Below the pieces are notes generated by a model. That model searched no databases. It was not told the origin of the DNA and saw nothing but the letters and a program-made list of their open reading frames with translations. From assembly GCF_036170895.1 (NCBI RefSeq), contig NZ_CP108036.1:3162001-3226000 (forward strand): a stretch of DNA of 64,000 bases. Direction: 5' to 3'. Positions within the stretch are counted from its first letter, which is position 1, and each line of letters starts with the position of its first letter. Positions 8,914 to 26,881 of this stretch are shown one piece after another. The position numbers and the translations under genes are program-made. Source of the DNA: Streptomyces erythrochromogenes (GTDB lineage: Bacteria; Actinomycetota; Actinomycetes; Streptomycetales; Streptomycetaceae).

Positions 8914-10302
8914 TCAGCCGGTGCAGCCCGGGACGGCACCGGTCGGGCTGCAGTTGTTCGGCTGGTTGTTGCGAATGACATCGCCGTTCAGGGTCAGGAG
9001 GCCGGACGCCTTGAAGATGCCGCCGCCGTCGCCCGCCCGGTTGCGCGTGATGGTGTTCTCCTCCAGCGTGGTGGTGCCCAGCCCCTCGGGTCCCCCGGCG
9101 TGGTAGAGGCCGCCGCCCTGAGCCGTGCCGTTCTTCGCGGTGGCTGTGTTCCGGAGAACCTTGTTGCGCCTGGCCGTCAGGGTGCCGCCGTCGGGGTTGT
9201 CGAGGCCGGCGCCCTGAGCCGTGCCGTTCTCAGCGTCGACGGTGTTACCGGTGATGCGGCTGTCGATCAGGTCGAGTGCGCCGAAGGGGCCGACGCGGAC
9301 GCCACCACCGCGCGCAGTGCCGTCCTTGGCCACCGCCCGGTTGCCGCTGATCTCCACCCTGCTCACGGTCATCAGGCCGTTGTTCGCGATGCCACCGCCC
9401 TGGGCGACACCGTGCGGAGCGTCCGAGGTGTTGTCGCTGACGGCGCCGCCGGTCACGGTCAGCCTGCCGGGCTGCGGGATGCCGTTGGCGACGGCGGCGC
9501 GCGCGAATCCCCCGGGGGCGAAGGAACGGTTCTTGCGGATGACCGTGTCCTCGACGGTCGTCTCGGCGAAGCTGATGATGCCGGCCGCGAAGGCGGTGCT
9601 CTGGGTGTCCTTGGTGACGGTCGCGGTGTTCCCGGTCAGCCGGGAGCGGGTGACCGTCAGAGGACCGTCGTTCGCGATGGCGCCGCCGGCGGCGGCTCCG
9701 CCGGTCGCGCTCCCGCTGTAGATGACGTGGTTCGCGGTGACCTCGGTCTCGCTCACGCTGCCGGTGCCGGGGCTGTCGATGGCGCCGCCCTGGGCGAACA
9801 CGTCGGACTGGGACGTGTTGCCGATGAACTTGCTGCGGGTCACCTTCATCGTTCCGGTGTTGGAGATGCCGCCGCCGCAGGCCAGACCCGGGGGGTCGGG
9901 AAAAGCAGGGCAGTCCGTGGCGAAGCCACCACTGATCGTCGTGCGGGTGAGCGTGAGGTTTCCCGTCGGTCCGACGAAGAGGATCCGGAACTTCGGCACG
10001 TTGTCCTCTCGCCCGTCCCGCCTGATCGTGGCCCCACTCCCGTCGATGGTGATCTCACTTGCGATCACCGGCAGCCCGTTGCCGGGGTTCACGGGGTCCG
10101 GCGCCGTCAGCTCGTACGTGCACTTGCGCGCCAGCCGGAGCGTGTCCGGCCCCGGTGAGCTGTTCGCGGCGTTGATCGCCGCGACGAGATCCGGGACCGA
10201 GCAGCGCACCTGCACCGTGGCGGCGTGCGCGGCCGGGGCGGGGACCGCCACCAGCGCGCCCGCCACGAGGCCGAGGACGGCCGGGACATGCTGACGAGAC
10301 AT
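8914..10302 (-). CDS. Secreted right-handed beta-helix repeat protein
   Basis: A 462-residue exported protein. ATG 10302 follows AAGGAG. The signal peptide (MSRQHVPAVLGLVAGALVAV, cut near AHA-AT) precedes a Cys-containing cap (RCSVPDLVAAINAAN, about 32-46). About ten rungs then follow with the recurrent pattern GGGI(A/S)N-G-(L/M)-TV-RS-I-GN-A. This is the arrangement of the parallel beta-helix and of the choice-of-anchor or polymorphic outer-membrane repeat families. There are two cysteines near each end (ACGGG, NNCSP, GCTG). No catalytic residues of pectate lyases are evident, so an adhesive or structural surface role is as likely as polysaccharide binding. It is a single gene flanked by hairpins. 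Confidence 0.85.
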   Translation of the reverse strand: MSRQHVPAVLGLVAGALVAVPAPAAHAATVQVRCSVPDLVAAINAANSSPGPDTLRLARKCTYELTAPDPVNPGNGLPVIASEITIDGSGATIRRDGREDNVPKFRILFVGPTGNLTLTRTTISGGFATDCPAFPDPPGLACGGGISNTGTMKVTRSKFIGNTSQSDVFAQGGAIDSPGTGSVSETEVTANHVIYSGSATGGAAAGGAIANDGPLTVTRSRLTGNTATVTKDTQSTAFAAGIISFAETTVEDTVIRKNRSFAPGGFARAAVANGIPQPGRLTVTGGAVSDNTSDAPHGVAQGGGIANNGLMTVSRVEISGNRAVAKDGTARGGGVRVGPFGALDLIDSRITGNTVDAENGTAQGAGLDNPDGGTLTARRNKVLRNTATAKNGTAQGGGLYHAGGPEGLGTTTLEENTITRNRAGDGGGIFKASGLLTLNGDVIRNNQPNNCSPTGAVPGCTG

Positions 10303-22238: not shown

Positions 22239-23030
22239 TCAGTCCCGTGCGGCCCGCTCGTACAGCGCCTTCGCCCGCTCGTCGAACAGCGCGGCCGTCG
22301 AGTCCACGTCGGTGTCCCCGCCGCTCAGCACTCCGATCAGGTGCCCGGCGGGATCCGCCCCGCCCCGGTCGGCGATCCACGGGCTGCCGCTCGTACCCGT
22401 CCAGAAGCCCGCGCAGCTCATGTAGAGCATGTCGGGGTCGTCATCGTCGTGACGGGTCTGCGTCGTGCAGGAGACGGGCCTGTTCTCCGGGTTGTGCTCG
22501 GACTCCGGGTAGCCGACGACGGTGACGTCCCGCTCGTAACCGGAGGTCCATTCGGGCCTGGGCGCCTCGGCGCGGCCGCCGACGGCCTCCTGGACGCTGC
22601 GCCCGTCCTCGTCCGGATCGATGGTGAGGAAGGCGAAGTCGGCGGTGTCCTCGCCCCACTTGGTCCAGCGGTCGTCCACGTGGATCGCCTTGACCTTCCA
22701 CACCCCCAGCGGCTGGGTGCCGTCGCCCTCGCCGGAGAAGGCCGGGGCGAAGGAGAGCTCGCCGATGGCCAGGCCGTCGTGAGCCACCTCGCCGGGCTGT
22801 CCGTCCTCGCCGGCGGGGGCGACGCAGTGCGCGGCGGTGGCGACGACATTGCCCTTCGGGCTGTCGACGACGCTCGCGGTGCACCAGTGCTCGCCGCCCG
22901 CCATGAGCACTCCGACGGTGGGGAAGGGGAGCACCGGCGGCTCGCCGGGCGCCTTCATGAAGGCCATGGCGCACACCGCCGCGATGCCCGCGGCGGCGGC
23001 CGCCGATGCCCCCTTCACCACCGTGCTCAT
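22239..23030 (-). CDS. Trypsin-like serine protease, membrane-anchored or secreted
   Basis: A 263-residue chymotrypsin-fold (S1) protein. ATG 23030 overlaps the stop of the upstream hydrolase by four bases (ATGA), so the two are translationally coupled. An amino-terminal hydrophobic segment (about 7-27) serves as signal or anchor. The catalytic triad is visible: His in VVATAAHCVAP, Asp in EDTADFAFLTI, Ser in WTGTSGSPWI. Cysteines sit beside the His and near SCTTQTR and MSCAGF. Such proteins often cleave extracellular partners. Its pairing with an esterase suggests joint action on an exported substrate. Confidence 0.88.
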   Translation of the reverse strand: MSTVVKGASAAAAAGIAAVCAMAFMKAPGEPPVLPFPTVGVLMAGGEHWCTASVVDSPKGNVVATAAHCVAPAGEDGQPGEVAHDGLAIGELSFAPAFSGEGDGTQPLGVWKVKAIHVDDRWTKWGEDTADFAFLTIDPDEDGRSVQEAVGGRAEAPRPEWTSGYERDVTVVGYPESEHNPENRPVSCTTQTRHDDDDPDMLYMSCAGFWTGTSGSPWIADRGGADPAGHLIGVLSGGDTDVDSTAALFDERAKALYERAARD

Positions 23031-24106
23031 CGCACGCCGGGATCGGGTGTCGGTCCCTTCATCACCTTGCTGATCCACTCCAGGGAGCCCTCCCTCATGC
23101 CGCGCACGTACGACTTTCCGTTGTGCTCACCATCCTGGATCACCTGGAGCGAGGTGTGCACGGGTCCCTTGCCGTACTCCTTCATGAACTTCTCGGCCTG
23201 CTCGCGACCGGTCTCCTTGGTGCCGATCTGGAAGTTGATGTAGACGTCGGGACCGCCCGTGTCGATCAGCTTCGCGGCGAGCTTCTCGGGGTTGTTCTGG
23301 TCCATGGCCTGCGTGTTCCCGTTCCAGAGCGGGGAGTCGGGCACGATGTCGGTGCCGCTCGCGATGGCCGCCTTGAACCGGTCGGGGTACTTCAGGAGCT
23401 GCTTGAAGCCGTTGAATCCGCCGGCCGAGGAGCCCATGAAGGCCCACCCGTCGCGGGAGGTGAAGGTGCGGAAATTGGCCTTCGCGAAATCGGGGACGTC
23501 ATCCGCCATCCAGGTGCCCATCTTGGGCTGGCCGGGGATGTCCGATCCGTCGAAGTGGTGCTTGGTGTCCGCGTTGGTCACCGGCATGATCAGGATGAAG
23601 GGCAGGCTCTTCCCCGACTGGGCCCCGTCGCTGACCGCCTGCTGCAGGCCGAGGCCCGGGCCCGTTCCCCAGTAGTTCGTGGGGTAGCCGCGGCCGCCGG
23701 GCAGGGAGATCAGGACCGGGAAGCCGCTCTTGGCGTACTTCGGATCGTCGTACTCCTTCGGCACCCACACCCACACGTCGCCCGTGAAGCCGGACTTCTT
23801 GCCCGTGAGGGTGGCCTTGCCGATCTGGGTGCCGTCGGGCAGCCGGCTGGTGCGGACGAACGAGGCCGCCGGACCGGTGGGCATGAGCACCTCCGGCAGG
23901 GCCTCGGAGGCGGTGGCCGTCTTCTCCTGGACCTTGCCGAAGGAGACCGGATCCCCTATGTCCGAGAAGAGGCCGAACTTGTACGCTGCTGCGCCCCCGG
24001 CGAGGGTGAGCGCGAGACCGCCGCTGATCAGAAGCAGGCGCAGGCGGTGGGGGCGGCGGCGACCCGTGGTCATGGGGCTGCCGTCGCCTTGCTGGTCATG
24101 CTGCAC
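23027..24106 (-). CDS. Exported alpha/beta-hydrolase (esterase-like), copy 1
   Basis: About 359 residues. One membrane span near 22-42 (HRLRLLLISGGLALTLAGG) works as signal-anchor. The rest is an extracytoplasmic alpha/beta hydrolase of the esterase-D/antigen-85-like group. The nucleophile elbow is GSSAGGF (Ser about 227). The oxyanion region is LPGGRGYPTNYW, and the catalytic His is probably in DGEHNGKSY. I chose GTG 24106, mirroring the GTG of copy 2; ATG 24073 is an alternative. It is about 60% like the gene at 25481 over the hydrolase domain, by eye. The protease gene overlaps its end. Substrate unknown. Confidence 0.85.
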   Translation of the reverse strand: MQHDQQGDGSPMTTGRRRPHRLRLLLISGGLALTLAGGAAAYKFGLFSDIGDPVSFGKVQEKTATASEALPEVLMPTGPAASFVRTSRLPDGTQIGKATLTGKKSGFTGDVWVWVPKEYDDPKYAKSGFPVLISLPGGRGYPTNYWGTGPGLGLQQAVSDGAQSGKSLPFILIMPVTNADTKHHFDGSDIPGQPKMGTWMADDVPDFAKANFRTFTSRDGWAFMGSSAGGFNGFKQLLKYPDRFKAAIASGTDIVPDSPLWNGNTQAMDQNNPEKLAAKLIDTGGPDVYINFQIGTKETGREQAEKFMKEYGKGPVHTSLQVIQDGEHNGKSYVRGMREGSLEWISKVMKGPTPDPGVR

Positions 24107-25480
24107 GGTTGTTGTCCCGTTCCTTCTCCGGCGCTCACCTCGGAGCGCGGGCCGGACCGATCGGTCCCCCTTACACCCTTTACAGAGGTATGAACGACGG
24201 TCCGGGTTGCCTGGGACGGGAGTGACGTGTCGAGCACCACGCGAGCCCTCGGGGGGCGGGGCGGGGTGAGGCGGGGCGGCGGGGCGGGGGCGGGGCGGCG
24301 AGCCGGGAGGGAGAGGCGCGGGAAGGTGGGGGGCGGCGGGGTTTCGGCGGGGCGGCATCAGCGCTGTCTTGGGGGTTTCCCGTCAGTCCCATCGTCTCTC
24401 CGGTTCGTGCCGGCCCCTCAGGGGCGCTCCTTCGTCGCGTCGCTGCGCGATGGCCTGCGGCCACCCTTGACCGCCCGTCCCGCCCCGGAAATACGAGGAC
24501 AGCCGGGAACCCCCCAAAGGAACGGGCCGGGCGATCGATAGAGAGACGGCGCGTCGGAGGGCGCGGGCGGGAGCCCGGAGCGCCTCAAATCGCTACGCGC
24601 TCCTGTCGTGAAGCGTCTGCGAGCCTCTTGGGCCGGACATAGGCCGCCATCGATCGCTACGCGCTTCTCGATCACGCGTCCGCAGACCGTCTGGGGCTGG
24701 CCATAAGCCGCAGAGGCCCGATTCGCTCCTCATGGAGGGCGTCCGAGGGCGGTTGGGGGGAGGAAAAGCGCCAGATAACGGCTGAGGCGATGCCAATCCA
24801 GGTGTGGGTGGATGCGCACCCCAAAGAGCCGACAGATTGCCCCAATTGCACCTGTTTGGGCGGGCGGCTGGGACCTCACCTCGCCCTTGATGGGGGTTGG
24901 CATCGGCTCAGCCGATGGATCGCCCTCCCGCCCCCCAAATCCGCCCCTCCCAGCCCCGAACAAGGGCCGGACGCGGTCTCGGAGAAGCGCGTAGCGATCG
25001 ATGGCGGCCTATGTCCAGCCCAAGAGGCCTGCGGACGCTTCACGACAGGAGCGCGTAGCGATTAGACGCGCTTCCCCGACCGCCCCGCCCATCACTGATG
25101 TGGCCGTCTCTCTTTTGAAGGCCCGGCCCGTTCCTTTGGGGGGTTCCCGGCTGTCCTCGTATGTCCGGGGCGGGACGGGCGGTCAAGGGTGGCCGCAGGC
25201 CATCGCGCAGCGACGCGACGAAGGAGCGGCCTTGAGGGACCGGCACGAACCGGAGAGACGATGGGACTGACGGGAAACCCCCAAGACAGCCCTGATGCCG
25301 CCCCGCCGAAACCCCGCCGCCCCACACCACCCCGCGCCTCCGCCCCCGCCCCGCCGAAAGCCCCGCGGCCTCAACGCGCTCGTCGGCTCGCGCTCCCGGC
25401 CGGGCAGGTCGTGGCCTCGTGGTGGGTGGGCAACCACGGGCCCGCGGTGGGGGCCGAGGGGGCTGGAACCCCGCCCCCGA
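24107..25480. other. Intergenic region between the hydrolase paralogues
   Basis: 1374 bases with no convincing gene. Most of it is the large imperfect palindrome described separately. Left of the palindrome (24225-24340) is an extremely G-rich stretch on the plus strand, with many GGCGGGGCGGGG runs. Right of it (25313-25480) is the C-rich counterpart. The promoter of hydrolase copy 1 should lie near 24110-24200. Confidence 0.7.
24341..25312. repeat. Near-1 kb imperfect palindrome (two inverted copies)
   Basis: Left arm 24341-24796 and right arm 24897-25312 are inverted copies around a loop of about 100 bases. The outer parts (24341-24535 against about 25122-25312) are almost identical: GTTTCGGCGGGGCGGCATCA pairs with TGATGCCGCCCCGCCGAAAC. 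Each arm holds two direct copies of TCGCTACGCGCT (24590-24601 and 24654-24665; complements at 24986-24997 and 25050-25061), all symmetric about 24825.5. Inner parts are diverged but still matched, as GATGCCAA (24789-24796) and TTGGCATC (24897-24904). No coding capacity is apparent. An RNA read from either strand could fold into a stem of over 400 bp. Confidence 0.85.
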
Positions 25481-26749
25481 TCAGCCCGCCTCGGGCTTCG
25501 GCGCCTTCAGGACCTTGCTGATCCACTCCAGGGAGCCTTCCTTCATGCCCCGGACGTAGTGCCAGCCGTTGTGCTCGCCGTTCTGGATGTCGCGGATGGT
25601 CATCTTGATCGGCCCCTTGCCGTACTGCTGCTGGAACTTCGTCATCCGCTCCTTCCCGGACTCCTTGGTGCCGATCTGGAAGTTGATGTAGACCTCGGGG
25701 CCCTTGGTGTCGATCAGCTTCTGGGCGAGCTTCTCCGGGTTGTTCGCGTCCATCTCCGCCTGGTGGCCCTTCCACAGCGGGGAGTCGGGGACGATCTCGC
25801 CGCCGCTGGCGATGACGGCCTTGAACTTGTCCGGGTGCTGGAGGACCGTCTTCATGCCGACGAACGCGCCCGAGGACGAGCCCATGAAGGCCCAGCCGTC
25901 ACGGGACTTGTAGGTGCGGAAGTTGGCCTTGGCGAAGGCCGGGACGTCCTCGGCCATCCACGTCCCCATCTTGGCCTGGCCGGGGATGTCGGAGCCGTCG
26001 TAGTAGTACTTGGCGTCCGGGTTGAGCACCGGCATGATCACGATGAACGGCAGGCTGGTGCCGGCCTGGGCACCCTCGCTGATGGCCTTCTGCAGGCCGA
26101 GGCTGCGGTCGGACCAGTAGTTGGCCGGGAAGCCGTTGCCGCCGGGAAGCGCGATGAGCACCGGGAAGCCGCTCTTGGCGTACTTCGGGTCGTCGTACTC
26201 CTTGGGCGCCCACACCCACACGTCGCCCTCGAAGCCGGACTTCGCGCCCGTGAGGCGGGTCTTCGCGATGATCGTGCCGTCGTCGAGCTTGGTGGTCTGC
26301 TTGAAGTCCGACTTCGGGCCGGTCGGCATCAGCACGTCGGGGTCGCCGGAGGGCTTGGCCTCGGCGGCCGGTGTGCCCGGGTCCGACTTGCCCGCGGCCG
26401 GGGGCGGGTTCTTGCCGAAGGTCACGGCCTCGCCGTTGCCCGAGAACCAGTCGAGCTTCCAGGCGGCGAAACCGCCGCCGCCGAGGAGCAGCGCGAGGGC
26501 GACCACGGCGCTGATCCATATTCGGCGCCGGGACCGCTCGGGCTGCGGGGGCTCACCGTCGTGCGGGTACCCGGTGGGGGCGGGCGGCTCGCCGTACGGC
26601 GGCTGGTCGTACCGCTCCTGGTAGGGCTGCTCCTGCCGGTACTGCGGGTACTGCTGCGTGTGCTGCTGCTGGCCGCCATGCCCCTGGGGCGGGTGGTCCT
26701 GGTACGACGGCTGGTCGTCAGGCCGCGGGCGCTGCGGGTACTGGTGCAC
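25481..26749 (-). CDS. Exported alpha/beta-hydrolase (esterase-like), copy 2
   Basis: About 422 residues, paralogue of the gene at 23027. GTG 26749 follows GGAG at 8 bases. Residues 1-75 form a Gln/Pro/Tyr-rich cytoplasmic tail absent from copy 1, followed by RSRRR and a membrane span (WISAVVALALLLGGGGFAAW). The extracytoplasmic domain matches copy 1: DVWVWAPKEYDDPKYAKSGF, LPGGNGFPANYWS, GTWMAEDVP, nucleophile elbow GSSSGAF and NGEHNGWHY. The Gln-rich tail resembles tails of Streptomyces membrane proteins that interact with envelope machinery. It lies upstream of copy 1 in the same direction, with the palindrome between. Substrate unknown. Confidence 0.87.
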   Translation of the reverse strand: MHQYPQRPRPDDQPSYQDHPPQGHGGQQQHTQQYPQYRQEQPYQERYDQPPYGEPPAPTGYPHDGEPPQPERSRRRIWISAVVALALLLGGGGFAAWKLDWFSGNGEAVTFGKNPPPAAGKSDPGTPAAEAKPSGDPDVLMPTGPKSDFKQTTKLDDGTIIAKTRLTGAKSGFEGDVWVWAPKEYDDPKYAKSGFPVLIALPGGNGFPANYWSDRSLGLQKAISEGAQAGTSLPFIVIMPVLNPDAKYYYDGSDIPGQAKMGTWMAEDVPAFAKANFRTYKSRDGWAFMGSSSGAFVGMKTVLQHPDKFKAVIASGGEIVPDSPLWKGHQAEMDANNPEKLAQKLIDTKGPEVYINFQIGTKESGKERMTKFQQQYGKGPIKMTIRDIQNGEHNGWHYVRGMKEGSLEWISKVLKAPKPEAG

Positions 26750-26881
26750 GAACTTCGCTCCGAACGGTCTTGACTGCCCCCGAGGGCAGAACGGCTGGTC
26801 TCCCCTAAGTCCTGATGAGCGAACCACCCGCACAGTTCCAAATTCGAGCAAAAAACATGGGGGAGGCGCGCGGGCGGGGAC

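Follow-up and report, generated by a model that had tools for sequence, protein, structure and literature searches.

We analyzed 64,000 nucleotides (nt) of Streptomyces erythrochromogenes (contig NZ_CP108036.1, positions 3,162,001 to 3,226,000), hereafter called the window, in which a long palindrome lies between two genes for esterase-fold hydrolases. The palindrome probably belongs to a family of composite elements with inverted arms in the Streptomyces virginiae/lavendulae group, which occupy fixed sites, are homogenized by ectopic recombination, and have exchangeable interiors. The family is dispersed as inverted pairs, shares sites between species, is homogenized within species, contains recombinant mosaics, and has differing interiors at one and the same site. 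We infer that ectopic homologous recombination is the cause of both the homogenization and the interior swaps.

In the explanation that we propose, each element would have two inverted arms, each with a hairpin-like unit of ~170 nt outermost, then a variable linker and modules of ~64 nt; between the arms would lie an exchangeable interior, which may be either a lineage-specific noncoding core or ordinary genes. Ectopic homologous recombination (gene conversion) between copies would both homogenize them and swap their interiors, with the symmetry of the arms allowing copies to pair in either orientation. The element might then serve as a fixed landing site for accessory genes, a core-only element being an empty landing site, and it probably does not act as a regulatory double-stranded RNA. 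As a hypothesis, the exchange may be started when the palindrome breaks, with SbcCD as one candidate for the cutting; two SbcD homologues above the cutoff are found in the S. erythrochromogenes genome. In Escherichia coli, SbcCD cleaves an interrupted 246-bp palindrome, after which the cell is dependent on RecA (PMC3315005); the account of this cleavage does not address gene conversion.

A dispersed family at sites shared between species

Using the left arm as a query, we found 46 matching pieces in the S. erythrochromogenes genome (G000) with 40 of 92 candidates scored, so that copy numbers for this genome are lower bounds. Remeasurement of these loci (the window site and L021 to L035, with L026 divided into L026a and L026b) gave 34 arms, each containing 130 nt or more of the outer unit, over 17 sites: 16 inverted (+,-) pairs including that of the window, a third arm in L024, and a solo arm in L027. 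Neighboring arms within 5 kb of each other were oriented (+,-) in 16 cases, (-,-) in one, and (-,+) in one. This genome is the only one in which orientation was judged without bias; the loci of other genomes were picked around pairs, and such loci contained inverted pairs in all eight other genomes. A pattern search with the terminal 32-mer of the outer unit, allowing up to three mismatches, returned 31 copies (30 of them exact), all at places of arm matches, and a reversed control returned none. A preliminary description of this DNA was right to consider a repetitive noncoding element; the genome has at least 16 inverted pairs plus two extra arms. By its own account, that description would have been refuted if each arm were a common repeat dispersed independently of the locus. 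This is half the case: the arm is dispersed, but mostly as inverted pairs.

The center of the palindrome (positions 24700 to 24980) recurs at 13 other places in the genome over at least 223 nt with 73 to 96% identity, and two more places hold a short piece. Because it recurs in other copies of the element, these ~280 nt are a family core and not merely a drifted loop. The possibility that the core is coding was rejected, as 6 of the 12 aligned copies have a stop at codon 6 of its open reading frame (ORF; 24790 to 25065) and another copy has one at codon 28, in agreement with the earlier statement that no gene explains the palindrome. Across species, core sequence at 74 to 82% identity over 169 to 284 nt was detected in loci of S. 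virginiae, S. yangpuensis, and S. amritsarensis, and pieces of 24 to 84 nt were detected in genome G223. It was not found in the 60 relatives searched, a set that did not include the closest relative, G066. The core is therefore lineage specific, and it is not limited to one species.

Among 295 genomes of the genus, a 177-nt outer piece matched 74 at an E value of ≤1e-3, many of them solely through an inner hairpin of ~55 nt, and at least 19, including that of S. erythrochromogenes, over ~120 nt or more. These counts are lower bounds, with two candidates scored per genome for the outer piece and 40 in the multigenome arm search. An exact 27-mer from the outer end is present in, among others, S. 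virginiae, S. katrae, S. amritsarensis, S. yangpuensis, and S. lavendulae. The ~55-nt hairpin (24418 to 24472 in the window), with ends resembling TCAAGGG/CCCTTGA, is far more widely dispersed and accounts for many of the weaker matches in the genus; short matches to it also occur on Nocardia and Microvirga plasmids.

The sites of the elements can be compared between species. The hydrolase pair of the window lacks the palindrome in all 18 relatives compared (L121 to L138), with 2 to 161 nt between the flank matches. In relative G066, taken as S. virginiae, one contig ends in an element next to hydrolase copy 1, and another contig starts with hydrolase copy 2; the two contigs presumably join at the site of the window. 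The left flank of G066 is 95% identical to that of the window over 2.7 kb, and its arms have a mean identity of 0.887 to the arms of the window and 0.899 to those of other S. erythrochromogenes sites. The G066 element retains 84 nt of the core (86% identity), and S. virginiae loci L157, L173, and L175 keep ~225 nt (80 to 82%). An element at this site in G066 and a plain spacer in the 18 further relatives do not support a reason for the palindrome that is peculiar to this locus.

With a flank match defined as at least 200 nt and 40 loci of other genomes compared, 11 of the 17 S. erythrochromogenes sites (L021, L023, L024, L026b, L027, and L030 to L035) have matches on both flanks to an element of another genome, which is a lower bound on shared sites. 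The matches are short for L026b (282 and 320 nt) and on one side of L035 (235 nt). One flank matches for the window, L022, and L025 (221 nt), and L026a, L028, and L029 have no flank match of their own to elements in the 40 loci. Site L032 was followed over 17 genomes and was occupied or partly so in six, G066 being counted from 49 nt where one of its contigs starts and G107 by eye. Nine of the 17 have only a spacer of 49 to 212 nt, G274 has an unrelated spacer of 391 nt, and G302 has a solo arm. In G281, an open frame resembling a GNAT acetyltransferase by eye lies at this site (L190) without recognizable arms. At site L035, the left flank is not conserved over the 17 genomes, and occupancy was left unscored.

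Between the outer units, elements hold either 0.56 to 0.83 kb of inner arm and noncoding core or an interior of 1.1 to 3.5 kb. Among the 20 interiors larger than 1 kb, 18 contain open frames scored as coding, the exceptions being L090 and L108; coding calls, as well as the orientation of neighboring genes, rest on a simple codon-position rule and not on a gene finder. Within a species, the noncoding interiors are alike; between near species, they are so only in part. A Pfam scan of 26 cargo proteins identified a GDSL lipase, a DDE_5 transposase, CYTH, GntR/UTRA (two), HAD (two), GNAT (two), NmrA, an APH-fold protein, an aldo/keto reductase, TetR, PadR, an alpha/beta hydrolase, an AraC/GyrI-like protein, SnoaL, a 2OG-Fe(II) oxygenase, and a transposase helix (HTH_Tnp_1); six had no family match, and one matched solely TPR_2 below its cutoff. 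Genes are grouped in some interiors, such as aldo/keto reductase with TetR, PadR with hydrolase, and NmrA with an APH-fold gene (L084). The interiors of one site differ by species: at the L032 site, L032 and L103 are noncoding and L081 carries GntR; at the L021 site, L021 is noncoding, L115 carries SnoaL, and L084 carries the NmrA and APH-fold genes. The same site thus holds different genes in different genomes, as is characteristic of a site of gene exchange by homologous recombination.

A small gene with a product of ~84 amino acids (aa) recurs in the interiors at seven sites, six of G197 and L022. Its product has no Pfam match and has 413 relatives in the database; those with an organism name among the best 120 of the 413 are from Streptomyces. 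An arm lies within 1.5 kb in 9 of the 14 small-gene loci with strong matches (E values up to 2.9e-23) and in 12 of all 30 loci. The stop codon lies inside the GCGCGTAGCGA motif of the module in 3 of 23 loci, with a one-base variant in a fourth (L211), and in three more of the 23 the motif follows the stop within 40 nt. Therefore, the module borders the exchangeable interior in several elements.

Several observations concern this small gene and plasmids. L086:3278-3532 (minus strand) and its relatives form a family of proteins of ~68 to 84 aa, which is multicopy in this Streptomyces group and often adjoins arms, and 13 Streptomyces plasmid records contain a relative. On the linear plasmid NZ_CP108163, a solo arm and the small gene lie 3 kb apart (L241:6055-6222 and 9037-9243), and this plasmid shares the gene order GNAT, dehydratase, Tat-signal protein, and small gene with the linear plasmid NZ_CP034352. 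A plasmid-borne palindrome was considered and rejected, the arm of NZ_CP108163 being without an inverted partner in the 6.4 kb examined. A phage origin was likewise rejected: no phage record matches the arm, and the patterns used for the small protein found no viral contig encoding it.

Arm sequence, species, and recombination

We compared 109 arms from nine species, one genome per species, leaving out arms with fewer than 130 nt aligned. Partner arms of one element had a mean identity of 0.931 (n = 53), and arms at different loci of the same species 0.916 (n = 941). Between species, the identity was 0.831 both for arms at the same site (n = 148) and for arms at different sites (n = 4,738). 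The undivided same-element class (0.920; n = 59) consists of the 53 partner pairs and six nonpartner pairs at 0.829. On the arm tree, species labels required 12 changes, against a mean of 67.3 when shuffled. Between species, the site is thus uninformative about the arm sequence.

The pairwise homoplasy index (PHI) test detected recombination (P = 0.002 each) among 12 elements of S. erythrochromogenes, 6 of G223, and 4 of G078, with L022, L026a, L026b, and L030 left out of the S. erythrochromogenes set. It replaces an exact-run test, in which 84 of 91 pairs lay beyond 200 shuffles and which overstates recombination because conserved blocks are unevenly spread. That exchange depends on homologous recombination is indicated only indirectly, by the concerted evolution of the arms and the PHI result.

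The inner arms of S. erythrochromogenes were no more alike between partners (0.727) than between elements (0.739; permutation P = 0.53), and none of 28 inner arms from 14 elements (L022 and L026a left out) was closest to its own partner. The lack of a partner excess speaks against a recent local duplication and against a selected long double-stranded RNA. G223, G078, and G158 likewise showed no excess likeness of partner inner arms. With at least 16 occurrences in the genome, the recent inversion-duplication at this locus that had been suggested is not upheld.

Several findings weigh against homogenization by exchange between copies. The PHI test was not significant for four elements of G158 (P = 0.31) or for the core alone (P = 0.29). 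In G197, partner inner arms are more alike than others (0.834 versus 0.653; P < 0.001), the partner being the best match in 10 of 18, and so are partner outer units (0.965 versus 0.927), which are the main source of the slight partner excess overall; exchange in G197 would therefore be partly within elements, or elements move there as units. Occupancy of L032 needs five changes on the tree, against a shuffled mean of 5.1, and is therefore patchy and without clustering. Solo arms occur at L027 and L112, and others among the matches listed look solo too. Finally, no exchange event was seen directly with one genome per species, and the near-identity of two elements described below fits transposition equally well.

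Structure of the palindrome in the window

The palindrome consists of an outer inverted block of 245 nt at 94% identity (24306 to 24550 and 25103 to 25347) and an inner block of 91 nt at 93% (24579 to 24669 and 24982 to 25072). The exact inverted seed is at least 59 nt, at which length the search was halted, whereas the longest seed that 50 Markov-1 simulations of the 3.5-kb region produced was 17 nt. The palindrome is real, and chance is excluded. Gapped identity between the arms, in 50-nt steps inward from 24306, was 0.88, 0.98, 0.94, 0.98, 0.75, 0.76, 0.92, 0.26, 0.48, 0.62, and 0.15. As the preliminary description had noted, the outer arms (~200 nt) are nearly identical, and the paired TCGCTACGCGCT copies (24590 and 24654; reversed, 24986 and 25050) share the center 24825.5. 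The same description had the inner parts drifted, which holds for the stretch after the outer part and for the innermost parts; a second nearly identical block (~24606 to 24655) lies in between, and the center is the family core. It had also placed the palindrome at 24341 to 25312, where one does lie, within a larger inserted stretch. In the best alignments to element-free relatives, homology ends at 24243 to 24259 and restarts at 25475 to 25481. The features are listed in the table below.

Features of the palindrome and its flanks (window positions)
Feature	Positions	Strand	Basis or remark
Whole inserted stretch	24244..25476		Comparison with species lacking the element; ends approximate
Left arm	24306..24700	+	Inverted-repeat and S. 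erythrochromogenes genome matches
Outer unit of left arm, starting TGGGGGTTTCCCGTCAGTCCCATCGTCTCTCC	24370..24536	+	Terminal 32-mer copies; present in other species
Two tandem ~64-nt modules with TCGCTACGCGCT, left	24589..24716	+	Repeat family D14; extent inferred from 64-nt spacing
Noncoding core	24700..24980		Recurs in the genome; ORF broken in other copies
Two tandem ~64-nt modules, right	24934..25062	-	Inverted copy of left pair (repeat family D15); extent inferred
Right arm	24968..25340	-	90% identity to left arm
Outer unit of right arm	25121..25283	-	Terminal 32-mer and arm measurements
Extra outer segment, right	25348..25476		Likeness by eye to segment beside L031 (5.81 Mb)
Esterase-fold hydrolase copy 1	23027..24073	-	Pfam PF00756 over 23036-24070; start inferred by reading
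Esterase-fold hydrolase copy 2	25481..26851	-	Pfam PF00756; start uncertain

Similar ~64-nt modules lie at the border of arm and cargo in G197. No Rfam family reached its gathering threshold in the window, and none matched at an E value of ≤1 within 24240 to 25480. The extra right segment ends near the stop codon of hydrolase copy 2 and has no match among the plasmids searched. Elsewhere in the genome, the locus with three arms (L024:7647-10910; +,-,-) has outer flanks matching two-arm elements of G197 and G062, and a complete palindrome there seems to take the place of one arm of a larger island bounded by arms.

Alternative explanations and relation to known systems

It is possible, though rather unlikely, that the palindrome is a nonautonomous transposable element with long terminal inverted repeats, like a miniature inverted-repeat transposable element (MITE), moved by a transposase in trans; shared sites would then be old inherited insertions, and lineage-specific sequence would reflect recent bursts. 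The inverted repeats at the termini, whose outer end is sharp and nearly invariant, would suit such an element, as would the clean empty sites and the arms of G158, which are of two types on the tree with one of each per element. Two elements ~165 kb apart (L024 and L025) are 99.4% identical without any flank match, the identity running from the left unit end to ~55 nt past the right unit, which fits transposition and exchange between copies alike. However, spacers at empty sites are unalignable, so that no target-site duplication is readable at the palindrome ends, and the 26 cargo proteins include no recurring transposase (one DDE_5 and one HTH_Tnp_1), a genome-wide search for a partner not having been made. 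Bursts into new sites also leave the species-specific arms at shared sites unexplained, and the PHI signal of recombination counts against this explanation.

An improbable alternative is a conserved element of chromosome structure, binding protein or forming cruciforms, which is selected at core-region sites with its cargo incidental. The 17 sites span 2.95 to 6.74 Mb of the 8.5-Mb contig, with dnaA at 4.23 Mb, and the invariant outer end and the sites common to several species are in line with such a role. However, these sites are clustered, so that the positional bias is weaker than it appears, and homogenization by itself can make copies invariant. The emptiness of the window site in 18 relatives and the mixed state of L032, with its plain spacers, the unrelated spacer of G274, and the apparent gene without arms in G281, also count against selection for structure.

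That the palindrome is selected as a terminator or as a long double-stranded RNA for RNase III processing is very improbable. The predicted fold of 24341 to 25312 has a free energy of -874.3 kcal/mol, against -468.5 (standard deviation, 8.0) for 20 shuffles, and shared promoter regions are mostly spared, since the genes flanking 52 elements are tandem in 28 cases, convergent in 18, and divergent in 6, counts for which there is no genome-wide background. On the other hand, partner arms are no more alike than others in G000, G223, G078, and G158, with G197 as the exception, and Rfam has no match. The excess of tandem over convergent flanking genes also led us to reject a strict terminator role. 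An assembly artifact or a recent local inverted duplication can be dismissed: draft genomes do break at arm repeats, as at the contig ends of G066, but 16 inverted pairs lie in a two-contig genome, pairs occur in the single-contig genomes G293 and G158, and partner arms differ.

The family that we favor, with fixed sites and exchangeable interiors, resembles several known systems in part. The minimal mobile elements of Neisseria are fixed sites that hold different genes in each strain and exchange them by homologous recombination through conserved flanking genes. The present sites are alike in being fixed with varying genes, whereas the homology here is a dispersed inverted arm common to the sites. 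Bacterial MITEs are likewise short, intergenic, noncoding elements with terminal inverted repeats; the present elements differ in their longer arms, the lack of a readable target duplication and of a partner transposase in the interiors, and shared sites with homogenized sequence. The wide dispersal of the ~55-nt hairpin in the genus recalls repetitive extragenic palindromic (REP) sequences and bacterial interspersed mosaic elements (BIMEs), but here the hairpin is part of a 1-kb composite in which genes may be present.

Integrons resemble the present elements in having sites that take up single accessory genes, as cassettes. Here, in contrast, genes lie between inverted arms, and no integrase was found in the 26 cargo proteins scanned, no dedicated search for an integrase or attC having been made. 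We would raise, as a speculative extension, that the family is a clade-wide, recombinase-free counterpart of the integron: fixed sites would be bracketed by the same inverted arms, an arm-flanked gene from a relative could be swapped into any site in either orientation by homologous recombination, and the fragility of the palindrome would provide the breaks. Delivery might conceivably be by a vehicle such as the linear plasmid on which the solo arm was found.

In Streptomyces, hot spots of insertions and deletions (indels) have been described, with indels from one gene upward and an ~5-fold-higher density in the chromosome arms (PMC6722414). The account of these hot spots makes no tie to palindromic arms, and the sites described here are in the central part of the chromosome. 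No description of this element family was found in the literature searched, which covered few subscription papers.

If our explanation is true, these elements provide single accessory genes with a route into the conserved central part of the Streptomyces chromosome. They would also offer a natural example of long palindromes that several bacterial species retain at the same sites and whose sequences undergo concerted evolution. Since sites, arms, and interiors can all be listed from genomes, palindrome-driven ectopic gene conversion in bacteria becomes directly testable.
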